A stretch of 64,000 nucleotides of DNA from Streptomyces chattanoogensis (GTDB taxonomy: Bacteria; Actinomycetota; Actinomycetes; Streptomycetales; Streptomycetaceae), in NCBI RefSeq assembly GCF_001294335.1, contig NZ_LGKG01000157.1, forward strand, positions 1-64,000. The letters run 5' to 3'. Made by a program: the position numbers and the translations under genes. Positions within the stretch are counted from its first letter, which is position 1. Each line of letters begins with the position of its first letter. The notes below the pieces were generated by a model. That model saw only the letters and a program-made list of their open reading frames with translations, was not told the origin of the DNA and did not search any database. This document shows, piece after piece, positions 872 through 23,105 of the stretch.

Positions 872-1139
872 GACGTCATCTCATTTGGCTGGCTCGGTAG
901 GGTGTCGGTCGTGGTGGGGATCGTTGAGCGGCTGGTGCCGGACGAGTTGTGGGAGCTGCGGTCTGCCCCTGTCCGTCGGGACCTCGGGGGCGAACCTGCA
1001 CGACAGCCAGGCTCTGATCCCCCTGGTCAAAGGCTTACCCCGATCCGGTCCCGCCGAGGACCCCGACGACGCAGGCCGGACAAGCTGCACGGCGACAAGG
1101 GCTACGACTACTCCCACCTGCGACGATGGTTACGCAAGG
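872..1139 (+). pseudogene. IS5-family transposase remnant (left IS copy)
   Basis: From the outer inverted repeat the sequence runs into the transposase N-terminus (GTG at 902, MSVVVGIVERLVPDELWEL), then jumps to the middle of the second ORF (LPLSVGTSGANLHDSQ, GDKGYDYSHLRRWLRK) and stops matching the right copy at about 1139. Most of orfA and all of the orfB C-terminus are gone. It retains a stretch of about 110 bp (980-1092) that is deleted from the right IS copy, so the two copies have complementary deletions. Confidence 0.8.
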
Positions 1140-1311
1140 CCGGAAGGCATGGGGAAATGTAGCTCTGGGTGACGTGCGTGACGTTCCGCCGCGATAGCGG
1201 CTCCCTCATCACGTCGCCATCGCCGCGGCCCGGCTGCACCAACGGCGTATCGGTGGTTCAGTGGAATCAGGGGAACCTGTATCCACTACCGCAAGCCGAG
1301 GAGGTCGGGCC
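1140..1311. other. Leader region of the RiPP-like cassette
   Basis: No gene is visible. It separates the broken left IS from the small peptide gene and should hold the cassette's promoter, but no clear -35/-10 pair stands out. It ends with a GGAGG box about 8 bases before the ATG at 1312. Confidence 0.4.
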
Positions 1312-1566
1312 ATGTCTGAATTCAGGCTGGGCGATCGAATTGATGAGAGCACGGAATTCGTCAACACTCCACCCCCTGTGGTCTTCAAGACCCAGCCGAC
1401 CGGTTACGTTCGGCTGAAGAGTCCCGAGGAACTCCGGGCGTGGGAAGAGGCAGTGCGCCTGACCACGGGCCTTGAGATAGACGCCGACAGTCTCGCAGGC
1501 CACGTCTGCGAATCTGGCTGCGAAGTCAACCTCACAAGTCGCAGCGATAGGTGTGACTTGGCATGA
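1312..1566 (+). CDS. Candidate RiPP precursor peptide (84 aa) paired with ATP-grasp ligase
   Basis: The ATG at 1312 has a strong GGAGG at about 1300; the upstream in-frame GTG at 1261 has none. The 84-residue product is acidic, with a proline/threonine-rich N-terminal part (TPPPVVFKTQPTGY) and a helical-looking middle (SPEELRAWEEAVRLTTG). Its tail holds all three cysteines and several Glu/Asp/Ser/Thr residues (HVCESGCEVNLTSRSDRCDL). It overlaps the ATP-grasp gene by ATGA, so the two are translationally coupled. Size, position and a hydroxyl- and carboxylate-rich tail fit a graspetide-type leader-core peptide. I do not recognise the family, and it could instead be a small accessory protein. 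Confidence 0.6.
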   Translation: MSEFRLGDRIDESTEFVNTPPPVVFKTQPTGYVRLKSPEELRAWEEAVRLTTGLEIDADSLAGHVCESGCEVNLTSRSDRCDLA

Positions 1567-2510
1567 TTCTGGCCGTCTCCTACCGTGAGGACTTGCATGC
1601 GGTCGCGGTACAGCACGCGGTGCGCAGTCGAGGTCATGACTTTCACATCGTGGAGTGCGACACCATCGGTGGACGAGCGGCTCTCTCGTGGCATTCGCAC
1701 GGAGCCGGAAAGAGCCATGCCCCGGGAAGGGCAACCCTGGTGACGTCCGAAGGCGCGACCGTGGATCCGGAGGAGGCGAGCCGTCTGTGGTGGCGGCGAG
1801 CCAGGGCTGATCAGGAGATCAGCGAGCGGGTGCGCAGTGACCACCAGCGCAGTCTGATCAACAACGACTGCCGCGGCGCGCTCGCCGGCGTCCTCGCCGC
1901 CGCCTTCCACGGGGATTGGATTTCATCCCCTGAAGCAACCCACCGGTCCTCGGACAAGGTGTATCAACTGGCGGCAGCGAGGCAGGCAGGGTTCCGGGTG
2001 CCGCAGACCCTGGTCTCGCAGTCACGTGAGGATGTCATCGCCTTTGTCAAGGAAGTCGGACGAGCCATTGTCAAACCCGTGGTCGGCGCCGTTGGACCTT
2101 CGCTCTACACAAGCTGGGTTGATGGACCGGAGTCGATCCCTGAAGGGTCGTTCGAAGTCTGCCCCGCCACCTACCAGGAGTACATCGAGGGCAATCGACA
2201 CGTCAGGCTCAACTGTTTCGGCGACCACATGTACGGGGCGCTCATCGCGACAGAAGCACTTGACTGGCGCCCCGACCTCAATGTGCCCATTTCGGCTTGG
2301 CCCGTTCCCGAGTACGTGAGCAGGCAGGTCGAAGAAGTGCTGCGCCGCCTGGGGCTTCGCATGGGTGTGGTGGATCTGAAACTCACACCGGAGGGCGAGC
2401 CGGTATGGCTTGAAGTGAACCCACAGGGCCAGTTCCTGTTCCTGGAACCACTAACCGGCCAGCCACTGACCGAGCTCTTCGCCGATTTCCTGCTGTCCGC
2501 GGCGGCTTAG
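1563..2510 (+). CDS. MvdD/TgnB-like ATP-grasp ligase (putative RiPP maturase)
   Basis: The protein has 315 residues. It has an N-terminal pre-ATP-grasp region like MvdD_N, the ATP-grasp lysine context SSDKVYQLAAARQAGFRVPQT (about 130-150), a second lysine segment IVKPVVG, a YQEYIEGNRHVRLN strand, and the metal-binding end DLKLTPEG...WLEVNPQGQFLFLE. The last motif is typical of ligases that form ester or amide cross-links between Asp/Glu and Ser/Thr/Lys side chains in microviridins and graspetides. It overlaps the small peptide gene at 1312-1566. Its TAG stop is built at the junction with the right IS end (TTA target plus the IS G at 2510), so the native C-terminus may have been trimmed by a few residues. 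No protease or exporter gene is present. Confidence 0.8.
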   Translation: MILAVSYREDLHAVAVQHAVRSRGHDFHIVECDTIGGRAALSWHSHGAGKSHAPGRATLVTSEGATVDPEEASRLWWRRARADQEISERVRSDHQRSLINNDCRGALAGVLAAAFHGDWISSPEATHRSSDKVYQLAAARQAGFRVPQTLVSQSREDVIAFVKEVGRAIVKPVVGAVGPSLYTSWVDGPESIPEGSFEVCPATYQEYIEGNRHVRLNCFGDHMYGALIATEALDWRPDLNVPISAWPVPEYVSRQVEEVLRRLGLRMGVVDLKLTPEGEPVWLEVNPQGQFLFLEPLTGQPLTELFADFLLSAAA

Positions 2511-3253
2511 ATGTCATCTCATTTGGCGAGTCTGCGGTAGCAGATGAGTGTGCAGGCGATGCCGGTGAAGGCGAGGAAGTGCTCGGCTTTGCGTTCGTAG
2601 CGTCGATGGAGGCGACGGCAGCCGGCGAGCCAGGACATGGTGCGTTCGATGGTCCAGCGGTGCCGGCCCAGCCGCTGGGAGGTCTCAATGCCCTTGCGGG
2701 CTATGCGGTGGGTGATGCCGCGCTTGCGTAACCATCGTCGCAGGTGGGAGTAGTCGTAGCCCTTGTCGCCCGACGGACAGGGGCAGACCGGTCCGCTCGG
2801 TGATCAAGTGGATCTTCGAGCCGTATTTGCCCCGGTCGACAGGATTCGGACCCGTCAGGTCCCCCTTTTCAGGGCCCGCATGTTCACCGAGTCGATCGCA
2901 CAGCGGGACCAGTCCAACTCGCCACGGGCGCCGAGCTCGTCGAGGACCAGGCGGTGGAGCTTGGCCCACACCCTGGCTTTCGTCCACTCGGAGAAACGCC
3001 GGTGGGCCGTCGCGCCCGACGGCCCGAACGACGCTGACGGCAACTGCTGCCACGTGCAGCCTGACGTGGCCACGAACACGATCGCAGCCAACACCTCCCG
3101 GTCACCATGCCGGCGTCGGCCGCCGCCCTGAGGCCGCGACGGGGCCTCAGGTACCACCCGCTGGAACAGCTCCCACAACTCGTCCGGCACCAGCCGCTCA
3201 ACGATCCCCACCACGACCGACACCCTACCGAGCCAGCCAAATGAGATGACGTC
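2510..3253 (-). mobile_element. IS5-family (IS1031-type) insertion sequence, right copy
   Basis: Both terminal inverted repeats are present: the inner end GATGTCATCTCATTTGGC at 2510 and the outer end GACGTCATCTCATTTGGC read from 3253. Both sides carry TTA. The length of 744 bp is shorter than expected because about 110 bp is missing near 2770, at the point where the left remnant carries the TSGANLHDSQ segment. Confidence 0.8.
2519..3223 (-). pseudogene. IS5-family transposase (two frames, internally deleted)
   Basis: The gene starts at the GTG at 3223 (MSVVVGIVERLVPDELWEL). The first frame runs through ATSGCTWQQLPSASFGPSG and WTKARVWAKLHRLVLDELG. The second frame carries GSKIHLITERTGLPLSVG, then jumps over a deletion to GYDYSHLRRWLRKRGI, the catalytic region HRWTIERTMSWL, and the C-terminus YRRLAK ending at about 2519. 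IS1031-type elements normally make OrfAB by frameshifting, so two frames are not themselves damage. The missing segment between PLSVG and GYDY makes the enzyme unlikely to work. Confidence 0.75.
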
Positions 3254-3320
3254 TTAGAAGAAGCCCAGCTTCTTCGCCGAATACGACACCAACAAGTTCT
3301 TCGTCTGCTGGTGGTACAGC
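3254..3320. repeat. Displaced dehydrogenase 3' end, putative attachment site (left)
   Basis: Read on the minus strand this stretch encodes [19 protein letters not shown] and a TAA stop. It is nearly the same as the C-terminus of the aldehyde dehydrogenase gene ([23 protein letters not shown] stop at 21582). Similarity to the gene ends at about 3320, and nothing upstream in the dehydrogenase is duplicated. A short 3'-end duplication at the far end of an island is the signature of integration into the 3' end of a gene that the element then restores. Confidence 0.75.
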
Positions 3321-3613: not shown

Positions 3614-4540
3614 CTAGTTCTGGCGCTTGACCCACGTAAGGGGAGCGGAGTCCGTCGGCGCCTGGATGAGCACGCGTGCGGGAATCGCGACGATCTTCTG
3701 CGCCTTGCCGTCGGTGTTGTCGATCTTTTGAAGGATGTATCCGGTGTACCACCCGCCGTTCGCGCGCCCTTCGAGCCATCCCGTTGTCTTGTCCGGGATG
3801 TCGACGTCCCTGCGCTCCTCGGCCATGCTCTCCCACTTGTTCGTCACCGAGGTCGACTGGTTGTACTCGAAGCTGGTCTCGGCGCCCCCCCCTTTGTTCT
3901 CTGGCGAGGCAGAGATGGTGACCTTGCCGCCCGCCTTCCAGCCACTGGTCGTGGTGTCTTCCTTGGCGACTTTGGCCTGGGTCACGTAGGTGAGTTTCGC
4001 CTTACCGATGGTCTTCGACGTGGTCCGCATCGTCGGGTACTTCGTGTCGAGCTTTCCCACAAAGCCACACGTCAGTGTGCGATTTGGCACGCTTTCCTTG
4101 CCGCACACGGTCTTCGCATCCAAGTTGCCCAGCCAGCCAGGATCCTTGTCCTCCTTGCTGCTCGTGCGTTCCTCCGTGCCGTAATCTTCGTAACCAGAGG
4201 TGGAGCCGAAGCCCGTCAGCCACTTCTGGGCATCCTTGACCGCCTGGGCGGGTGAATAGACCTTCTTCGCCTGTTCGAGTGTGATCTTCTGGGTGTCCTG
4301 ACCGGTGACCGGGTAGCCCTGGATGGCTTCGTGCTCATAGAGGGGCGAGTTCTTGCTGAGTTGGTCGATGACCTCCTTCTCACTCTTGAGGTAGGTGTTG
4401 CCGTCCTCGGCCATGGCAGGCGTAGCCGCGCCGGCCAGCATCGGCGCGGCGATGAGGGCGACGGATGCCGCAAGTACGGCGGCACGCCTCCCCGTTCGGC
4501 GCGGTGCTTTGTGTGCGGGGGTGGTGACGGGTGTGGTCAT
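3614..4540 (-). CDS. Secreted protein of unknown function, possibly aerolysin/ETX-MTX2-like
   Basis: The protein has 308 residues with a long Sec-type signal peptide (RRTGRRAAVLAASVALIAAP, then AxA at about residues 40-44). The mature part has two cysteines (TVCGKES...LTCGFVG). It has a long Ser/Thr-rich beta region, SGWKAGGKVTISAS followed by TSFEYNQSTSVTNKW, then GWYTGYILQKID near the C-terminus. Alternating beta-strand residues with an amphipathic S/T stretch are reminiscent of aerolysin-type pore formers, but I see no diagnostic motif and this is only a structural guess. It is monocistronic, ends in a strong hairpin, and faces the SGNH lipoprotein gene across a 346-bp divergent region. 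Confidence 0.6.
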   Translation of the reverse strand: MTTPVTTPAHKAPRRTGRRAAVLAASVALIAAPMLAGAATPAMAEDGNTYLKSEKEVIDQLSKNSPLYEHEAIQGYPVTGQDTQKITLEQAKKVYSPAQAVKDAQKWLTGFGSTSGYEDYGTEERTSSKEDKDPGWLGNLDAKTVCGKESVPNRTLTCGFVGKLDTKYPTMRTTSKTIGKAKLTYVTQAKVAKEDTTTSGWKAGGKVTISASPENKGGGAETSFEYNQSTSVTNKWESMAEERRDVDIPDKTTGWLEGRANGGWYTGYILQKIDNTDGKAQKIVAIPARVLIQAPTDSAPLTWVKRQN

Positions 4541-7657: not shown

Positions 7658-7759
7658 CGCACCGCCTGCATGCGTATGTTCAGCCGTTACAACCCATTTA
7701 CGGTGCTATACGGGGTGGGTGTATCGACGAGCGAGAAGAGCGAGAGGAAAGGCCGGTCC

Positions 7760-8452
7760 ATGACACGCGTCCTGCTGATCGAGGACGATCCCGGCGTGCG
7801 CCGCGGCGTCACGCTGGGACTGCAGCACTACGGTCACGAGACGGAGGCGGTCGCCACGGGCGAGGACGGCCTGGCATCGCTCGTTCCGTTCGCGCCGGAC
7901 ATCGTGCTGCTCGATCTGATGCTGCCCGGAATGAGCGGCCTGGAGGTGTGCCGGCGCATCCGCGTGAGCAGCCAGGTGCCCATCGTGATCCTCTCCGCCC
8001 GCGGTGACGACATCGACGTCGTGATCGGCCTGGAGGCGGGCGCCGACGACTACATCGTCAAACCCGCGAGCAGCGAGGTCATCGAAGCACGGATGCGCGC
8101 GGTGATGCGCCGCCTGGCCCCCTCGCAGCCCCGCTCCGGCCAGGGCGACCAGCCCCTGGCCTACGGCGACCTGGAGATCGACGGGGCCGCGGTGCGGGTG
8201 TGCAAGCACGGTCGGGCACTCACCCTCGCCCCCTCCGAGCTGAAGCTCCTGCTCTTCCTGTCGGCCTCCCCAGGGCAGACCTACAGCCGCCAGCAGCTCC
8301 TCGAACAGGTCTGGGAACACAGCTACTACGGCGACGCGCGACTCGTCGACGCATGCGTGAAACGGCTGCGCTCCAAGATCGAGGACGACCAGCGCAATCC
8401 GCGCTACATCCAGACCGTGCGCGGCTTCGGCTACCGCTTCGGGCCGCTGTGA
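7760..8452 (+). CDS. OmpR-family response regulator (AfsQ1/CseB-like)
   Basis: The ATG at 7760 follows GAGGAAAGG. The protein has 230 aa. The receiver domain has the acidic pair LIEDDPG, the phospho-acceptor Asp in IVLLDLMLPGMSG, the conserved Ser in VILSARGDD and Lys in DDYIVKP. The C-terminal winged helix contains LAPSELKLLLFL, YSRQQLLEQVWEHSYYGDARLVDACVKRLRSKIED and VRGFGYRF. GDDIDVVIGLEAGADDY and the VWEH..GD.RLVDACV run resemble AfsQ1. The kinase gene overlaps it by GTGA. Confidence 0.9.
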   Translation: MTRVLLIEDDPGVRRGVTLGLQHYGHETEAVATGEDGLASLVPFAPDIVLLDLMLPGMSGLEVCRRIRVSSQVPIVILSARGDDIDVVIGLEAGADDYIVKPASSEVIEARMRAVMRRLAPSQPRSGQGDQPLAYGDLEIDGAAVRVCKHGRALTLAPSELKLLLFLSASPGQTYSRQQLLEQVWEHSYYGDARLVDACVKRLRSKIEDDQRNPRYIQTVRGFGYRFGPL

Positions 8453-9885
8453 GACGCCTCCTCCCGCGGGGCCTGCGCACCCGCCTCGTCGTCGCCTTCC
8501 TCCTGGTGTCGGCCCTCAGCGCCCTCATCGCCGCCGCCCTCACCTTCCGCCAGGGACGGGCCGCCATCCTGGACCGCGTCCGGGACGGCGCCGTGCACGA
8601 ACTGCGCGCCCAGATCGGCTCCCTGGCCCCCGACCTGCCGTACGCGCCCGCCGGGACGGACCTGCGCACCCTTGCGCTCCAGCTCGACCGGGCCGGCGGC
8701 TCCCGGGACGGCTGGCGCACCGCGGCCGCCTACCGCGGCGGCGCCCTCGTCTCCGCCGCGGGCCCCGCACCCGCCCTGCCCGCCCCCTTGCGCCACGCCG
8801 CCTCCTCTGCGCACACCGCCGTCGTCCAGCGTTTCCACCATGCCGGGGAACCCTGGCTGGCCGTCGCCCTGCCGGTCGCCCGCGAGAACCGCCCCTCCGA
8901 GCCCTCCGGACTGGTCGTCTACGCGTCCTTCTCGCTCATCGAAGAGGAACGGGACGTCGCCACCCTCCTCTCCGCCGCACGTGCCGGCGCACTGCCCGTC
9001 ATACTGCTGTCCCTCGTCCCGGCGCTGCTCGCGGCCCGCCGCGTCCTGCGCCCGGTACGACAGCTGCGATCGGCCGCCGAGAAGATGACCGCCGGCGCCC
9101 TCGACACCAGGATCCGCGTCACCGGCGACGACGAACTCGCCGACCTCGGCCGTACGTTCAACACGATGGCCGCCACGCTCCAGGCCGATGCGGCCGCACT
9201 GCGTGCCATGGAGAGCCGAGCCCGCCGTTTCGCCGCGGACGTCTCCCACGAACTGCGCACCCCCCTCGCCGCGATGACCGCCGTCACCGGCGTCCTGAGC
9301 GAGGACGCCGGCTCGGGGCGGCTGGCCCCGGAGACCGCCGAGGCGCTGGAGCTGGTCGCCGACGAGACGAACAAGCTCGGCCGTATGGTCGAGGACCTGA
9401 TGGAGATCTCCCGGTTCGACGCGGGTGCCGCCGCCCTGGACCTCGACGAGATCGACATCGGCGAACTCGTCCGCAAGACGCTCGGCCTGCGGCACTGGCA
9501 GGACCGGGTCGGCGTCGACGTGCCGCAGGGTTTGCGCGCCCGTCTCGATCCCCGGCGCATCGATGTCGTCCTCGCCAACCTCATCGGCAACGCCCTGCGT
9601 CACGGCGGCCCGTCCGTACCGGTGGACGTCCGGGCCCGGACCGAGGACGACCTGCTCATCGTCACCGTCACCGACGGCGGCCCCGGCATCCCGGAGGACA
9701 CCCTGCCGCACGTCTTCGACCGCTTCACCAAAGGCGACGCGGCCCGCCCCCGCAGCGAGGGCAGCGGCCTGGGCCTCGCCATTGCCGCAGAGAACGCGCG
9801 CCTGCACGGCGGCACCCTCACCGCCGCCAACGCGCCCGGCGGGGGAGCGGTCTTCACCCTCACACTGCCCCAGGAGCCGACGTGA
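8449..9885 (+). CDS. Sensor histidine kinase (AfsQ2/CseC-like)
   Basis: The GTG at 8449 overlaps the regulator stop. The protein has 478 aa. The first membrane helix is at about 12-32 (LVVAFLLVSALSALIAAALT). An extracytoplasmic sensor of about 130 residues follows, then a second helix (GALPVILLSLVPALLAA), a HAMP linker (VRQLRSAAEKMTAGALDTRI), an H-box ADVSHELRTPLAAM, an N-box NLIGNALRHGG, and G-boxes DGGPGIPE and GSGLGLAIA. It is a class-I kinase, presumably phosphorylating the regulator upstream. The external domain, together with the two flanking lipoproteins, suggests sensing of an envelope condition. Confidence 0.9.
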   Translation: MRRLLPRGLRTRLVVAFLLVSALSALIAAALTFRQGRAAILDRVRDGAVHELRAQIGSLAPDLPYAPAGTDLRTLALQLDRAGGSRDGWRTAAAYRGGALVSAAGPAPALPAPLRHAASSAHTAVVQRFHHAGEPWLAVALPVARENRPSEPSGLVVYASFSLIEEERDVATLLSAARAGALPVILLSLVPALLAARRVLRPVRQLRSAAEKMTAGALDTRIRVTGDDELADLGRTFNTMAATLQADAAALRAMESRARRFAADVSHELRTPLAAMTAVTGVLSEDAGSGRLAPETAEALELVADETNKLGRMVEDLMEISRFDAGAAALDLDEIDIGELVRKTLGLRHWQDRVGVDVPQGLRARLDPRRIDVVLANLIGNALRHGGPSVPVDVRARTEDDLLIVTVTDGGPGIPEDTLPHVFDRFTKGDAARPRSEGSGLGLAIAAENARLHGGTLTAANAPGGGAVFTLTLPQEPT

Positions 9886-13062: not shown

Positions 13063-13211
13063 AGTACCCGGCTATCCCTGGAAGTCCAAAGTGATGCCGG
13101 TCGGGCCTGTGGTGCAACGTCCGGACCGCACTCAAGCCCCGCTTTGAGGGGCCCTGACCTCGATGGATGTGGCGCGGCTCATATCATCCGTCTCGCGATT
13201 CGAGACGAAGG

Positions 13212-14223
13212 TCAGGCCAGTCGTTTGCGTGCCCGGAGGAGGACGAACGCCGCGAGGGCGAGGGTGAGGGCAAACAGGATTGCGGCGCCGAGCCACTGCA
13301 TGCCGCTCATCTGCGAGGCGGGAAGGTAGTCCACCGACCAGCCGACGACGTGTTCCTTGGCCAGGCAGGCGGCTTGGCCCCGCTCTGTCGTTTCGTTGCT
13401 GCAGGTGCCCCAGTCGATGAGTTTGCCGGCGCTGGTGAGGTAGGACTGGTCCAACTGGAAGGCTCCGGCCCGGCAGTTCGGGGGAGGCCGCCTCGCCCAC
13501 ACCCTGGTGGGTCGTCATGGTGACCACGCTCCCGAGGTCCATCCGGAGGTACGACCCCACCAACGGCACCGCGACGGCGAAGCCGAAGGTGACCGCCATG
13601 GCCGCCAGGACGCGGCGCAGGAGCATGCCGATCGCCACACCGCCAAGGATGGTGAACAGGGTGAGCGCCACGGGCACCGGGCCGGTGTTGTCGAAAAAGA
13701 CCCCGGAGATCCAGCCCTGTGGGGGCATGTCGATCGCCTTCAGCGGTTCGTACCACCAGCTGAATGCGGCGGACGCCGCGACGGCGCAGACCGTCACCAC
13801 GAGAGCGGTCATGCCCGGCTTCATGGCGAGCCGGCGGACACGGGTGACGGACTGCGAGGTGATCGGCTTGGCGGTGCCGTGCTCCAGGTCGCCGGCGAGC
13901 AGCGGCGCGCCCAGGAAGACGCCGAGCAGAACGGGGACGAAGCCGAGCGCTGAGCCGGCGCTGCTCAGCCGGTCGGCGTCGGGCCGGACGTCCCGTTCCC
14001 AGTTCTCCCCTGTCGGGTGCGGCCAGCCGATCGTGTGGAGGTGATCCATCATTCCGGCGCGCAGGAAGGCGATCAGGGCCACGCAGGCGACGGTGGCGGC
14101 GAGGACGGTCCAGAAGGCGGCCCAGTGCTGGCGCCGGACGAGCCAGGTCAGTCCGCGCAGCCGCGGACCGCGGGCGGACCGGGAGGCGGCGGCCGGGGCA
14201 GGGATGCCGGTGAGTGTGGTCAT
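13212..14223 (-). pseudogene. ABC transporter permease with a frameshift
   Basis: From the ATG at 14223 about 240 residues are good permease sequence (WAAFWTVLAATVACVALIAFLR, PLLAGDLEHGTAKPITSQSVTR, five to six helices). Near 13470-13490 the frame is lost. The continuation, FQLDQSYLTSAGKLIDWG...LPASQMSGMQWLGAAILFAL and a final helix ending RARKRLA at 13212, is in another frame. A single-base indel would join them. It is either a real mutation or a sequencing error. The start overlaps the ATPase gene stop (ATGA). Confidence 0.75.
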
Positions 14224-15172
14224 GCCGCTGTCTCCTTCGGGCCGGTGTGGCCGGCGACCTGGGCACTGGGGGTGATCAGGGGCGGCGCATCGGGCGAGCG
14301 GAGGTACGCGAGCGGGAGATCCTCCAGGTTCGGGGCACCGAACTGCCAGGAGCCCGTGATCGCTCCGTAGGGGCGGACCAGTGCGCTGATCTGCTGTCCG
14401 CTGGTGCGGGACTCGACAACGCCGTGCGGTGCGAGGTCCTCCGGGGTGCCTTCGCCGGTCCGGACGCCGGTGACCCAGGTGTGCGCGCCCAGCAGGGCAT
14501 CCACCTCGCCGGCCAGACGCAGCCCGCCCGAGGCGACGACCAGCAGGTAGTCGCAGACGCCCGCCAGCTCGTCGAGCAGGTGGGAGGACAGCAGCACGGT
14601 CGTGCCGTGCTCGACGGCCCCGGCGAACAGCGTGTTCATCAGCTCATGACGTACCAACGGGTCGAGGTCCGACATGGGTTCGTCAAGGATGAGCAGGTCG
14701 GGGCGTTTGCCGAAGGCGAGAGCGAAGGCGACTCGGGTGCGCTGCCCGCCCGAGAGGGTGCCGACCTTCGCGTGCAGGGGCACATCGCCGCAGCGGACGA
14801 TCTCCTCGGCGGCTCGCTGGTCCCAGCCGGGGTTCAACTCCCGCCCCAGGCGCAGGGTTTCGGCAACGGTGAAGAGGCGAAAGAGCGGCTTTTTCTGCGC
14901 GAGGAAGGCGGTACGCCGGTTGGCCTCCGCCGATTCCGGGGCCGCGCCGAAAACTCGTAGGCTGCCCGCGGTCGGTTCCAGAAGATTCGCGGCGATCCCC
15001 ATCAAGGTGGTCTTGCCGGCGCCGTTGGGGCCGACGAGCCCGCAGATCCGGCCTGCGGGCAGCCGGAACGAGCAGTCGCGCAGGGCCCACCCCGCCGACA
15101 CTTCTTCCCCAGGCCGTGCGCCTCCAGCGCAGCCTGGCCCACCGGCGCTCCAGGGCCCGTGCTGTCACTCAT
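14220..15172 (-). pseudogene. ABC transporter ATP-binding protein with an N-terminal frameshift
   Basis: The best start is the ATG at 15172, 8 bases after GAGGAG, giving GQAALEAHGLGKKCRRG. The frame then shifts by one base at a G-run near 15093-15098 into WALRDCSFRLPAGRICG. The rest is intact: Walker A GPNGAGKTT, Q-loop AFLAQKK, signature LSGGQRTR, Walker B LLILDEPMSDLDP, H-loop SSHLLDE. A GTG at 15101 could give a shortened protein lacking the first strand. It pairs with the permease downstream. Two frameshifts in adjacent genes suggest decay of the transporter or low-quality sequence. Confidence 0.75.
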
Positions 15173-15521
15173 CAGTGCACTCCTCGTTCCTTGTTCGTTG
15201 CTGTGTCCAGGTCAGCGGGGGCTGCCGGGAGCGTTGTCGTACCGGACTTCCCGTTCCGCCATGACCGGCACGGCGACATGTTCCTGATCCAGGCCGGCCG
15301 CGTAGGCACGTTCCATTGAGCAATCGGCGAACGCCAACCAGCCCTATGCGGGGCTGCGGTACCGGTCCGGATGCCCTTCGCTCACCCGGACCGCTCGGTC
15401 CGCATGTCCCTCTGCGCATGAGCTGACCAGGGCCAAGGGAGCGGTGGGGCGTGCACGGGTCGGCCGGCTCTCAGCAGCTGGTGAGGGGAGGCGTCCATGT
15501 CAGATCCTTCCTGTCCGTGTG
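15173..15521. other. Spacer between second PadR gene and ABC genes
   Basis: No convincing gene is seen. A 34-codon minus-strand frame at 15212-15316 (MERAYAAGLDQEHVAVPV...) may be the end of a deleted gene. In the first PadR operon the next gene is a HAAS protein, and here that position appears to be empty. Confidence 0.3.
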
Positions 15522-15884
15522 TCAGTCGACGATGAATTGGTCGACGGCACCTCGGAAGTGCGGCCAGATATCGGTGAAGTCCTTCAGTGCGGCCCGCCCC
15601 GTGGGCGTCAGCTCGTAGTAGCGGCGCGGCGGCCCGATGGGCGACTCCTGCCAGCGGGTCTCCACCAATCCGTCACGGCGCAGCCGTGACAGCAGGGGGT
15701 AGATCGTGCCCTGGCCGGCGGCCATGACACTCCCTGCCTCCAGCGCCTCCAGCAACTGCACGCCGTAGCGGGGGCCGTCGCGCAGCAGGGCCAGTACGCA
15801 GTGCTCCAGCGCCCCCTTGCGGAGCTGCCTCTCTGCTTTGCCGACTGAGAACTTGCCTGCAATGTCAGGTTCCATGCAATGCAT
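15522..15884 (-). CDS. PadR-family transcriptional regulator (second copy)
   Basis: The protein has 120 aa from the ATG at 15884, or 117 aa from 15875. It is nearly the same as the first PadR: LRKGALEHCVLALLRDGPRYGVQLLEALEAG, GTIYPLLSRLRRDGLVETRWQESPIGPPRRYYELTPTG, HFRGAVDQFIVD. There is no Shine-Dalgarno sequence, and two 12-bp repeats overlap the start region. It is probably the regulator of the damaged ABC genes downstream. Confidence 0.85.
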   Translation of the reverse strand: MHCMEPDIAGKFSVGKAERQLRKGALEHCVLALLRDGPRYGVQLLEALEAGSVMAAGQGTIYPLLSRLRRDGLVETRWQESPIGPPRRYYELTPTGRAALKDFTDIWPHFRGAVDQFIVD

Positions 15885-15907
15885 GCTACATGGTAATGCA
15901 ATGCATG
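15874..15907. promoter_or_regulatory. Paired operator-like repeats at the second PadR start
   Basis: The 12-mer ATGCAATGCATG occurs at 15874-15885 and again at 15896-15907, exactly 22 bp apart (two helical turns). Each copy includes the palindrome ATGCAT. PadR dimers bind such AT-rich dyads, so autoregulation is the likely role. Confidence 0.6.
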
Positions 15908-16048
15908 TACTCGGAGGAGGGGTGTGGTCTGCCGCACCCCGGCCTGCCCGGGCCCGCCTGCCCCGGCGTGCGGGGTGCCGCGCCGCCCGCGTCGAGTCGC
16001 TCACCGTGATGACGCATATCGCCTGATAATGGACATGAGTGGTGCGCG

Positions 16049-16309
16049 ATGGCTCCCTCACCAGCGAGGAGCGAGATGAACACCTCTAACGATCTTGTCG
16101 GTGGCGGGTCGTTGCCGTTGAGCGATGCGGCCGCTGTGGTCGACGAGGGCTGGGGACAGGGCGCGGCCGGTGGCCGCGCCCTGTTTGTCGTGGCCCAGCT
16201 CGCCGTGTGCCGAGGCTGCCGCTACGGCCGCCGCGGAACAACCATCTGGGGCGAACGGTCCCTCACCGCCACCACCGCACCTGCCGGGCTCCGGGAGGTG
16301 GAGACATGA
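16049..16309 (+). pseudogene. Degenerate HATPase C-terminus (relic of a phosphatase/kinase-like gene)
   Basis: The 86-codon frame ends with GGRALFVVAQLAVCRGCRYG and RRGTTIWGER, which align with the C-terminus of the downstream phosphatase (GGRGLYMVSQFAQLWGTRYH, ARGKTIWAEQ). No catalytic N-, G1- or G2-box remains. Its TGA overlaps the next start (ATGA at 16306). It may still be translated as a small coupled leader, but it is most simply the tail of a deleted paralogue. Confidence 0.5.
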
Positions 16310-18774
16310 CCCCCCGGATCTTCGGTGATCTTGCCGCGCCACAGGACGAGGCTTATGCCGTCATCGGCGCACGGGGCGTGGTGACGAGTTGGAGCCCGGG
16401 TGCCGAGCGCCTGCTCGGCTACCCCGCCGACGCCATCCTGGGGCGGCGCGGGACGGGCCTGCTGCAGGACGAGACTGATGCTCCCCGACTCGAGGAGCGC
16501 TGCCGGGCCGGGGAGCCCTTCCTCGGGCAGACGGCCCTACGCCATCGGGACGGCAGCCGCGTCGAGGTCGCTCTGCATGCCCAACGCCTCGTGTCCGCCG
16601 ACGGTGAGCCGCAGTGGCTGATTCGCGCGAACTCCGCTGATGCGGTGCGTCAGCAGAATCTCGGCCGTGCGCTCCTGAGGGGCCTGTTCACCGAATCACC
16701 CTTCCATATCGACGTCTTCGACGCCCGGCTGCACTACGTCGCGCAGAATGCGCGGCGCGTGAAAGGTTTCGCGTATCGGGATTTCGAGGGGCGCACCATG
16801 CGGGAAGTGGCTCCGGTCGGAGTGTTCGACATCGACGACTTCGAGGCCCGGCAGCGGAATGTCCTGGCCACCGGTGAGGCGCTGGTCGCAAACGAAGTGC
16901 ATGCACGCGATCCCGGGGACCCGGACCGGTACCGGGCCTTTTCCGAGACGATCGTTCCGCTGCGCAGCGATTCGAAGGAGGTGATCGGCCTGGCCCACGC
17001 GGTATTCGAAATCACCGACCGAGTCCGCGCCCGGGAGCGATTGGCACTGGTCAATGACGCCGGCTCGAAGATCGGCAGCACACTTGAGGTCCTGCGCACC
17101 GCACAGGAGCTGACCGACGTGGCGATCCCGGTCTTTGCCGACCACGCCTACGTCGACCTGCTGGACCCCGTCTTCGGGGGCGAGGAACCCGTGGCCGGTC
17201 CCGTCGACGAGACGGTTCCGCTACGCCGCGTGGCGAGTTCATCGGTCCGTGACGGGCCGGTGGAGGAAGCGGTCGTCACGGGGGACATCGATCTGTTCAC
17301 CTCCGGAGTGAGCTCCGTGTTCACCCGGGCGCTGGCCAGTGACGAGCCCCTGCTCCTGACCCGCAGCGAGGTGATCGCCGAACTGGCCGCGACCGATTCC
17401 CGCCTGGCCTCGCGTGCCGAAGAATTCGGCGTCCACTCGTGGCTGCTGGTGCCGATGTTCGCACGAGGCGCCGCGCTGGGCGTGGTGGTCTTCGAACGCT
17501 TCAGAGGTGAGCACGGCTTCGAGGCGGACGATGTGCTGCTCGCCGAGGACGTGGTGGCACGGGCCGCCGTATGCGTCGACAACGCCAGGCGGTACACCCG
17601 CGAGCGGACGACGGCGTTGGCGCTGCAACGCAGTCTGCTGCCGCAGCGGATGCCCGTGCTCAGTGCCGTCGAGGCCGCCTCGCGCTACCTGCCGGCGAGC
17701 GGCCGAACGGTGCTGGGAGGCGCCTGGTTCGACGCGATCTCGCTGTCGGGCGCACGCGTCGCGCTGGTGGTGGGAGACGTACCCGGAAACGACCTGCACT
17801 CGGCCGTGACGATGGGTCGGCTACGGACCGCAGTGCGCACACTCGCGGACCTCGACCTGTCGCCCGAGGAACTCCTCACCCACCTGGACGACCAGGTCAA
17901 CCGATTCCACGACGAGCACGGAGAAGGCATTGCGGGCAGAGCGGTCGGGACCACGTGCGTGTACGCGGTCTTCGACCCCCTCACACGGCGCTGCACCGTG
18001 GCCCGCGCAGGGCATCCGGCACCCGCACGCGTACGCGCGGACGGGCAGGTCGAATTCCTCGATCTGCCCGACGGTCTCCCCCTCGGCCGTGGCGGAGCAC
18101 CCTTCGAAAAAGGCGAAGCGACACTGGACGACGGAGATCTGCTCGTCCTGCACACCGATGGCTCACCCACCGGGCAGGGCCAGGGCGCCGAGACGAACCT
18201 CGCGTCGCTCCGCGAGGCGCTGTCCGGCGCGGGGCTCAACCCCGCTCAACGGCTCGATGACATCTGCGACACGATCATGGGCCACCTTTCCCCCGCCCGT
18301 CGGCAGGACGACGTGGCGCTGCTCGTAGCGCGGGTACGCGGCCTTGAGCCGGACCGACACGTCACCTGGGATCTGGCGGACGATCCCGCAGTCGTGAGCG
18401 AAGCACGTGCCCTGGCCATCGGGAAACTGCAGGAATGGGGCCTGGAAGACCTGGAATTCACCACAGAACTTCTGGTCAGCGAACTGGCCACCAATGCCAT
18501 CCGCTATGGCAGCCCACCCATCCAGCTGCGGCTCATCCGAGACCGCAACCTCATCTGCGAGGTCTCCGACAGCAGCAGCACCTCTCCCCATATCCGCCGC
18601 GCCCTTGATACCGACGAAGGAGGACGCGGCCTCTACATGGTCTCTCAGTTCGCCCAGCTCTGGGGCACCCGCTATCACGCCCGCGGCAAGACCATCTGGG
18701 CCGAACAAGCCCTCCCCATGGCGCGCCTGCCATTACCGAACAGCTCTGACGGCAACGTGACAGGGCCGGCGTGA
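16306..18774 (+). CDS. PAS-PAS-GAF-SpoIIE phosphatase with C-terminal HATPase
   Basis: The ATG at 16306 follows GGAGGTGGAG. The protein has 822 aa. The first PAS domain (VVTSWSPGAERLLGYPADAILG) is at about 20-130 and a second PAS at about 135-250 (FHIDVFDARLHYVAQNARRVKGF). A GAF domain lies at about 255-430. A PP2C/SpoIIE phosphatase lies at about 440-660 (LQRSLLPQRMP, GGAWFDAISLSG, VGDVPGNDLHSA, VARAGHPAPARVR, GDLLVLHTDG, DDVALLVARV). An anti-sigma-like HATPase follows at about 690-800 (ELLVSELATNAIRYG, GRGLYMVSQFA, GKTIWAE). Such proteins tune anti-sigma/anti-anti-sigma switches in response to small signals. Confidence 0.9.
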   Translation: MTPRIFGDLAAPQDEAYAVIGARGVVTSWSPGAERLLGYPADAILGRRGTGLLQDETDAPRLEERCRAGEPFLGQTALRHRDGSRVEVALHAQRLVSADGEPQWLIRANSADAVRQQNLGRALLRGLFTESPFHIDVFDARLHYVAQNARRVKGFAYRDFEGRTMREVAPVGVFDIDDFEARQRNVLATGEALVANEVHARDPGDPDRYRAFSETIVPLRSDSKEVIGLAHAVFEITDRVRARERLALVNDAGSKIGSTLEVLRTAQELTDVAIPVFADHAYVDLLDPVFGGEEPVAGPVDETVPLRRVASSSVRDGPVEEAVVTGDIDLFTSGVSSVFTRALASDEPLLLTRSEVIAELAATDSRLASRAEEFGVHSWLLVPMFARGAALGVVVFERFRGEHGFEADDVLLAEDVVARAAVCVDNARRYTRERTTALALQRSLLPQRMPVLSAVEAASRYLPASGRTVLGGAWFDAISLSGARVALVVGDVPGNDLHSAVTMGRLRTAVRTLADLDLSPEELLTHLDDQVNRFHDEHGEGIAGRAVGTTCVYAVFDPLTRRCTVARAGHPAPARVRADGQVEFLDLPDGLPLGRGGAPFEKGEATLDDGDLLVLHTDGSPTGQGQGAETNLASLREALSGAGLNPAQRLDDICDTIMGHLSPARRQDDVALLVARVRGLEPDRHVTWDLADDPAVVSEARALAIGKLQEWGLEDLEFTTELLVSELATNAIRYGSPPIQLRLIRDRNLICEVSDSSSTSPHIRRALDTDEGGRGLYMVSQFAQLWGTRYHARGKTIWAEQALPMARLPLPNSSDGNVTGPA

Positions 18775-20740: not shown

Positions 20741-21419
20741 CCCGGCTCAGGTTGTCCGACTGCTCGCGGCGGTTGGCCAGCAGTGCGGGCGCGGTCCTCA
20801 CCTCGAGGCGTTCTTCGGCTGCATGTACTACGCGGCCATGCGGCCGGCGGAGGTCATCCACCTCCGGCTCGAACAGTGCCATCTGCCCAAGACCGGGTGG
20901 GGGATGCTCAACCTGTCGGGCGGAGTCGTCACCGCAGGAAAGGAATGGACGGACGACGGTGCGGTGCACGAGGTGCACTCGCTCAAGCGCCGTGCGGCTA
21001 CCGCGACCCGGCCAGTGCCCATCCCGCCGCAGTTCGTACGCATCCTCCGTGCACACATCGAACGGTTCGGCGTGGCGCCGGACGGCCGACTGTTCCGGAA
21101 CCAGGCCGGCAACTACGTGGACGCGTCTGCGTATGGCATTACGTGGGCGCGGGCACGGAAGTACGTGCTGACCCGCACGGAACTCGCCTCCGGGCTGGCC
21201 AAGCGGCCCTACGATCTCCGGCACGCCGGGATCTCGTTCTGGTTGTACTCCGGTGTGGACCCGGCCGAATGCGCTCGCCGCGCGGGCCAGAGCATCGAGG
21301 TCCTCTTCCGGCATTACGCCAAGTTCCTGGATGGCGTCAGGGAGCAGGCCAACCGGCTGATTGAGCAGTCCATGCAGGAGTGGGACCGCGTCAGCCAGGG
21401 CGCGGCGCCTGAGGGGTGA
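20736..21419 (+). pseudogene. Tyrosine integrase, 5'-truncated (catalytic domain only)
   Basis: Integrase sequence begins at RYPAQVVRLLAAVGQQCGRG and the first possible start is the ATG at 20823 (198 aa), which has no ribosome binding site. The catalytic residues are present: Arg in MRPAEVIHLRLEQ, PYDLRHAGISFW, and Tyr in LFRHYAKF. The N-terminal about 180 residues (arm- and core-binding) are missing because of fusion to a YchF relic. It lies about 165 bp from the dehydrogenase 3'-end att site, as integrase genes do. The terminator at 21534-21574 follows. Confidence 0.75.
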
Positions 21420-21581
21420 GTCGGGGTTTTGGTCCGTGACTGGTCCGGAAGAGCTGGTCAGGAGCGGGATAGCGGTGGGAGGAACTGGGAGTTACGACGT
21501 AAACCGGGCCCTGCTCTGAGCGGGCCGAGCGGAAGGCGCCTGACGGGCAAAAGCCCAGGTCAGGCGCCTTTTTTCGTGCCT
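21213..21581. repeat. Right copy of the 370-bp direct repeat
   Basis: This is the counterpart of 501-870, covering the integrase C-terminus, spacer and terminator. It continues without interruption into the dehydrogenase 3' end, unlike the left copy, which is split by the transposon. Confidence 0.85.
21534..21574 (+). terminator. Rho-independent terminator between integrase and dehydrogenase
   Basis: An AGGCGCCTGAC stem and its complement (21559-21569) are followed by six T. It probably works in both directions between two convergent genes. Confidence 0.8.

Positions 21582-23105
<1,524 letters not shown>

Follow-up and report, generated by a model that had tools for sequence, protein, structure and literature searches.

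A short cysteine-rich peptide gene that runs directly into an ATP-grasp ligase gene, both lying between two insertion sequence (IS) copies, raises the question of whether the pair is a peptide-modification system of the graspetide type and, if so, what part its cysteines play. We addressed this in a window of 64,000 nucleotides (the whole stretch of DNA analysed), which is the start of one contig of the Streptomyces chattanoogensis genome (9.13 Mb in 217 contigs). The two genes form a unit of about 1.2 kb whose nearest relatives are from Streptomyces:

1139-1311, + strand: upstream region of the pair, common to S. wedmorensis, with the ribosome-binding site GAGGAGG just 5' of the ATG
1312-1566, + strand: precursor peptide gene, 84 aa, ATG start (phmmer, profile search, alignments A1-A3)
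1563-2510, + strand: ATP-grasp ligase gene of graspetide-synthetase type, 315 aa (profiles, PDB relatives, model)

As originally predicted, the peptide frame overlaps the ligase frame by the sequence ATGA, and the peptide tail carries three cysteines, Cys66, Cys70 and Cys81. We consider the pair to be most probably a minimal graspetide-type system. It very likely works like one, and its most likely product is a small ring-stapled peptide. Layout, enzyme and core chemistry conform to those of graspetides, and the product itself is predicted from sequence and structural modelling.

The ligase and its closest known counterparts

The expected kinship of the ligase with graspetide-type ATP-grasp enzymes was confirmed by its predicted fold (mean pLDDT 90.8). 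When this model was compared with the PDB by Foldseek, the first 32 rows were all graspetide synthetases (MdnC, PruB, AMdnB, CdnC, PsnB and MdnB), and these rows, including MdnC with its precursor, gave TM-scores of 0.66-0.84 by query length; PDB relatives of the ligase were 5ig9, 5ig8, 7m4s, 9bou, 7mgv and 7drm. Lys132, Lys171, Glu206, Arg215, Asp271, Glu284 and Asn286 are invariant in an alignment of 53 ligase sequences. All of them except Lys171 align to identical residues of 5ig9, and we take these six to be catalytic-site residues. By its profile matches, sequence, predicted fold and invariant ATP-grasp residues, the ligase is of the graspetide-synthetase type.

The best NCBIfam match was TIGR04187 (SAV_5884), which describes actinomycete ATP-grasp maturases. 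It extends over nearly the full length of the ligase, but its score of 154.6 bits misses the curated cut-off of 350. The MvdC (128.9 bits against a cut-off of 425) and MvdD (105.9 against 475) models also matched over nearly the full length and missed, and the ligase scores under the curated cut-off of every named maturase model in NCBIfam. Unlike the TIGR04187 systems, the pair has a precursor recognised by no NCBIfam model. It resembles MdnC/MdnB, AMdnB, CdnC, PsnB and PruB in predicted fold, in catalytic-site residues and in having a separate, adjoining gene for a leader-bearing precursor. It differs from them in sequence (18-27% identity in structural alignments), in its Cys-rich and strongly conserved core, and in being without a recurrent transporter, protease or acetyltransferase.

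Several relatives of the ligase carry the public name 'RimK family alpha-L-glutamate ligase', and an enzyme of this kind would attach amino acids, glutamate or others, to the peptide or to a different protein. We regard such an activity as very improbable, since RimK and LysX, together with ArgX, ranked behind the 32 graspetide-synthetase chains by fold and the rimK_fam model scored 43.9 bits on the ligase against 154.6 for TIGR04187. For RimK, one would not generally expect a dedicated partner of the precursor type.

Co-occurrence, distribution and neighbours of the pair

Ligase relatives were confirmed in 163 stretches by a scan of GTDB genomes, and 80 loci were kept. The original prediction had proposed a search for conserved co-occurrence of peptide and ligase. 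Among the 17 nearest ligases (50-94% identity in the best segment), a homologous peptide ORF lies just upstream in all 17, indicating that the peptide is not a chance ORF. The two frames overlap by 4 bases in 11 of these loci and by 1 base in 3, and are separated by 1 base in 2; in the remaining one (L017, a Chitinophagaceae MAG of Bacteroidota), the gap is 70 bases with the ligase start taken from the start of the tblastn match. We also looked for signs that the peptide lacks homologues beside ATP-grasp genes or belongs to a known unrelated family, and found neither.

A tree of 48 ligases was built from 20 that accompany the Cys-rich precursor family and 28 from the other 63 loci, and the 20 fell into one clade with support of 100/99. 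Across these 20 pairs, ligase distances correlated with those of the leader at 0.87 and with those of the core at 0.58, and none of 2000 permutations was as high (Mantel test, in which shared ancestry remains). Contig sizes pointed in the same direction: an exact longest-contig size was shared with one of the 120 listed ligases by 25 of the 120 listed precursors, whereas with sizes offset by 1 to 40 in both directions the number of matches averaged 0.78 and never exceeded 6. Some matches between short contigs, such as that of P0175 with P0019, are probably due to chance.

More distant ligases (L019 onward), where a precursor could be guessed, are accompanied by other cores such as SISGSDDGWDDCDE. 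Other unclassified precursor-like peptides stand just 5' of the ligase match in L027, L030, L031, L034 and L037, in L026 and L028, and in L033 and L035. Their hosts are Intrasporangiaceae, other Micrococcales, cyanobacteria and Rhodobacterales, and ATISGSDSGWDDSDCF is another example of their cores. Three more distant ATP-grasp matches in the window's own genome, on contigs C185, C207 and C155 (L103-L105), are possibly other graspetide loci.

The precursor was found in 6 of 394 Streptomycetaceae genomes and, among 396 Actinomycetota genomes, in one, the window's own. Of the five Streptomycetaceae genomes besides the window's, four have kept the ligase, and two of these four share exact stretches with loci L013 and L015 and so are probably the same assemblies. 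In the fifth (G288, locus L084), the precursor contains an internal stop and no ligase lies within the 3.25 kb stretch examined, which may be a loss of the pair caught in progress. Viral contigs yielded 49 stretches matching the precursor-alignment pattern, none of which encodes a relative. Phage records contained no close relative and only distant ATP-grasp matches, in two records and covering 62-64% of the ligase; these are 26-32% identical to it (MT835913.1 and KF114876.1, a faecal phage and a Leptospira phage). Among plasmids, where 55 records matched at 1e-10, the single close relative (65.9%) comes from Streptomyces sp. NBC_00158, where it is carried by a linear plasmid. On the 498-kb linear plasmid NZ_CP108162.1 (L107), about 4 kb separates the pair at 7753-9059 from a lanthipeptide dehydratase/cyclase cluster at 13169-16960.

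Apart from the pair itself, no family of genes within about 8 kb was shared by more than 3 of the 17 loci. A neighbour family present in four loci under a looser grouping was split in a stricter run, its members in L003 and L011 being short-chain dehydrogenases. Sister loci L005 and L008 have a syntenic stretch in common. Twenty flanking ORFs from 11 of the 17 loci, picked by script and not always the nearest, matched varied Pfam families, with no ABC-type exporter, clear leader peptidase or recognised radical-SAM enzyme among them. The predicted absence of an exporter or protease likewise held in the window, where no such gene is present between the IS copies. As no neighbour family recurs beyond 3 of the loci, the unit would be either self-contained or served by proteins encoded elsewhere.

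A make-up of synthetase and precursor only is described for graspetide groups 27, 28 and 35 in the available portion of PMC13097080, and the pair is like these groups at the level of group description. According to the accessible part of PMC8939145, many new graspetide precursors have conserved cysteines, which are tied there to radical-SAM thioethers; compared by description, the pair shares the conserved Cys with those clusters, and differs in that a radical-SAM enzyme was not recognised among the 20 flanking ORFs.

Single-locus candidates for helper genes near the pair include, in L006, an alpha/beta-hydrolase upstream and a methyltransferase-domain ORF (9164-9787) that closely follows the ligase and shares its strand, the latter possibly a local tailoring gene; a CstA-family membrane protein in L009; and, on plasmid H1, a gene with a trypsin-like peptidase domain about 1 kb upstream of the pair on the opposite strand. 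In the window, the minus strand at 3614-4540 encodes a 308-aa protein with a secretion-signal-like start and no Pfam match.

A conserved cysteine-rich core

The precursor is divided into a leader (about residues 1-64) and a core (about 65-84), which reads VCESGCEVNLTSRSDRCDLA. Its homologues numbered 11 by phmmer and 157 by profile search. The 84-aa peptide matched no NCBIfam family and a single Pfam model, ABATE, under its cut-off (E 0.045). Assigning the family from Pfam or NCBIfam hits over 112 aligned precursors was tried and rejected, as no family hit more than 10 of the 112 and the best E of 0.004 was attributed to chance. The precursor family is nameless in both collections. Its core strings were not found in the literature searched.

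We based the following counts on alignment A3, whose 112 rows are 105 of the best 120 of the 157 precursor matches, the window's peptide and peptides from 6 loci. Most of the 15 listed precursors outside it duplicate other rows closely or are truncated or extended; part of P0228 is garbled, and P0215 was omitted without such a reason. Two others outside A3 depart at the core: P0172 breaks the core rule with Ile at the position of Glu67, and P0207 carries Cys68 alongside Thr66.

Conserved leader positions are P21-P22, Q28, P38, W44-E45 and G53, and the precursor model predicts a helix at 38-52 followed by a low-confidence tail. The family consensus PPVV[LF]x[VA]Q fits the leader pattern Phhx(1,2)h as given in the available text of PMC8939145, to which the window's own PPVVFKTQ is a loose fit; the same text finds this motif in only about half of graspetide precursors. 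The peptide had been described as unlike graspetide precursors. This stands in so far as no named precursor model matches it, and falls as regards layout, since the PPVVF leader, the predicted helix and the acidic Ser/Thr tail do match.

The family core can be written as [SCT]E[ST](G)CSxGC[ST]DDC[DG], and ASESCSGGCSDDCD is the core of one consensus-type homologue. Among acids and candidate donors, E67 is present in 111 of the 112 rows, S/T68 in 103, S/T78 in 111, D79 in 110 and D80 in 90; elsewhere in the core, the counts are 108 for C70, 98 for S71, 99 for G73, and 97 each for C77 and C81. All 112 cores contain 2-8 donors (Ser, Thr or Lys) and 2-5 acceptors (Asp or Glu), and between 1 and 6 cysteines, odd numbers being frequent. 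The window's core retains E67, S68, C70, S78, D79, C81 and D82; its residue 66 is Cys, and S71, C77 and D80 are missing. On this sequence comparison, the window's precursor is a divergent member of the family.

Co-variation of tail residues, which the original prediction had also proposed to look for, was evident as trades between positions. Ser or Thr occupies 66 or 68 in every row, and the 9 rows without it at 68 all have it at 66. Similarly, Asp occupies 80 or 82 in 111 of 112 rows, with D82 in 21 of the 22 rows that are without D80 (Fisher P 2e-5, relatedness ignored), and S/T66 is associated with D82 (Fisher P 4e-7 over the 112 rows, relatedness ignored). On a leader-only tree, these patterns need 6 changes for D80 loss, 7 for D82, 6 for S/T66 and 2 for S/T68 loss; because several changes are needed, the trades are not all one event. 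Losses of C77, C81 and C70 need 4, 8 and 1 changes. Exchange among donors (Ser/Thr) and among acceptors (Asp) is the pattern predicted if these side chains are linked.

We propose the following sequence of steps, the first of which is suggested by the enzyme family and predicted structure. The ligase would bind the conserved leader through its PPVVF..Q motif and the helix at 38-52. It would then use ATP to phosphorylate the core carboxylates of Glu67, Asp79 and Asp80 or Asp82 and join them to the hydroxyls of Ser/Thr 66 or 68, and 78, probably making two ester staples with 18 Da lost per link. Cys66, Cys70 and Cys81 would end as a disulfide, metal ligand, free thiol or thioester. Finally, a housekeeping protease would remove the leader by cutting close to the small residues G63-x-[A/V]65; we propose a housekeeping enzyme because the pair is not accompanied by a protease or exporter gene of its own.

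Such a Cys-rich core, with its strong conservation, may point to a different reaction. Only Cys, Ser or Thr is seen at position 66 in 106 of the 112 rows, at position 70 in 112 and at position 81 in 111, an exchange that leaves room for a Cys donor. Carboxylates might be joined to Cys thiols, or to a mixture of Cys and Ser/Thr, to form thiolactone rings, which we judge unlikely. The near-constant nucleophile at these three positions speaks for it, as do the 8 changes needed for Cys81 loss, nearly always to Ser; Cys to Ser is a common neutral swap too, which counts against this use of the exchange, and the steadiest donor positions, 68 and 78, are Ser/Thr and not Cys. Published synthetases form thioesters once a donor is swapped for Cys, but the cases given in the available portions of PMC12291112 and PMC13097080 are engineered or non-native only.

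Mean conservation over the 112 rows is 3.32 bits per column in the core (14 columns) versus 2.45 in the leader (61 columns). Cores of RiPPs usually vary faster than their leaders, and a core better conserved than its leader across the family suggests a fixed function. The Cys tail might bind metal or form disulfides while the ligase only shapes or stabilises it, with a role inside the cell and not as an exported antibiotic. We hold this reading as a tentative possibility, with more doubt than belief. In addition to core conservation and the high counts of C70, C77 and C81, it accords with the reach of the family to a Bacteroidota MAG (L017) and with the lack of an exporter recurring beside the pair in the 17 loci. 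It fits less well with leader block 21-28, which at 3.31 bits per column is level with the core, with the variable and often odd number of cysteines, with the missing C77 of the window's copy, and with the repeated swapping of Cys for Ser on the leader-only tree; export could also proceed via proteins encoded elsewhere. The ester-stapled product remains our preferred reading. With its many natural variants, this small portable unit offers a route to asking whether graspetide synthetases naturally use cysteine.

The IS-bounded insertion and selection on the window's copy

Two damaged IS copies had been predicted on either side of the pair, and both were recovered together with the junctions of the insertion:

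869-871, no strand: TTA bordering the insertion on the left, a candidate target duplication (sequence)
about 872-1138, + strand: left IS remnant, with the outer end and some inner segments of an IS5-family element (blastn alignment to the right copy)
2510-3253, - strand: right IS5-family copy, shortened, 744 bp, with a PF13340 transposase ORF at 2855-3223
3254-3256, no strand: TTA at the right outer junction (sequence)
21205-21651, + strand: paralogous, uninterrupted copy of the insertion target (blastn)

By blastn, the inverted ends are identical over 88 bp including one TTA base (871-958 = 3254-3167, 100%), and the left remnant matches the right copy further at 959-980 (= 2790-2769) and 1091-1138 (= 2770-2723). 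The outer junctions read TTA|GACGTC...GACGTC|TTA. The flanks are paralogous to a second site in the window, 493-866 matching 21205-21580 at 91.8% and 3255-3320 matching 21583-21651 at 85.5% (blastn); joined across the insertion, they are identical to it at 405 of 449 positions, and the uninterrupted site, near 21.58 kb, reads CTA. Identical ends, TTA on both sides and an uninterrupted paralogous site make 872-3253 look like one composite IS5-family insertion, and the predicted location of the pair inside an IS-bounded unit is upheld by the same blastn ends and junctions. The right copy is also bracketed by TTA on its own (2507-2509 and 3254-3256), and its separate insertion is possible.

The unit is like composite transposons of IS5-family elements in having one IS twice around a cargo, TTA at the outer ends and an insert-free paralogous site. 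It is unlike them in that the cargo is a two-gene peptide-modification unit and both IS copies are shortened. The right copy has 744 bp against about 853-857 bp in 12 listed relatives named 'IS5 family transposase', each aligned in two pieces, and the left copy is fragmentary; a working transposase was not found in the unit. With both copies shortened, any movement would need a transposase from elsewhere. We infer that the pair has moved, and a minimal Cys-rich system of graspetide type, in a mobile copy, is the most likely description of the locus. No paper treating a graspetide together with an insertion sequence was found in the literature searched.

The same pair in S. wedmorensis (L001 7577-8964) is 95.1% identical in nucleotides to 1139-2526, with homology starting past 1138. 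IS relatives are present on both sides of that pair too, in a different arrangement, and 959-1135 is 77.7% identical to the IS there. In the other 16 loci, nucleotide similarity to the IS is confined to two cases: L002 has a 72-bp match distant from its pair, and in L013 an alignment ends in a weak run of 57 bases.

A fuller proposal can be framed from these observations: a two-gene Cys-rich graspetide family spanning Actinomycetota and a Bacteroidota MAG, in which Cys is the natural donor, the ligase builds thioester (thiolactone) staples and the pair spreads as a composite transposon in the window's lineage. We find this combination rather improbable. If Cys is indeed a natural donor, the conserved core and the lack of a recurrent exporter would point to an internal role (metal, redox or signal) and not to an antibiotic.

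Selection was estimated against S. wedmorensis. dN/dS was 0.08 in the leader (1 non-synonymous change), 0.33 in the ligase and 0.51 in the core (4 non-synonymous changes). Of the 9 pairs tested, 4 had a core dN below that of the leader (L002/L006, L002/L003, L005/L008 and L014/L016) and 5 had one above it, including all 3 with the window; core conservation is thus a property of the family and not of the window's lineage, which is drifting from an otherwise conserved core. With its core diverging and C77, S71 and D80 lost, the window's copy could be less constrained.

Such drift might mean that the copy is an IS-trapped relic out of use, as would fit the damage to both IS copies, the decayed precursor with no ligase nearby in one relative (G288/L084), and a core off the family consensus with the dN/dS given above. 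Neither frame is interrupted, the ribosome-binding site is preserved, and dN/dS in leader and ligase is well under 1, and we accordingly consider a relic quite unlikely.

Two further observations concern the left flank of the insertion. The segments 493-866 and 21205-21580 are 92% identical, and a frame at 156-707, over the first of them, resembles a tyrosine recombinase C-terminus but had no Pfam hit. The two segments may therefore be a repeated mobile-element end.
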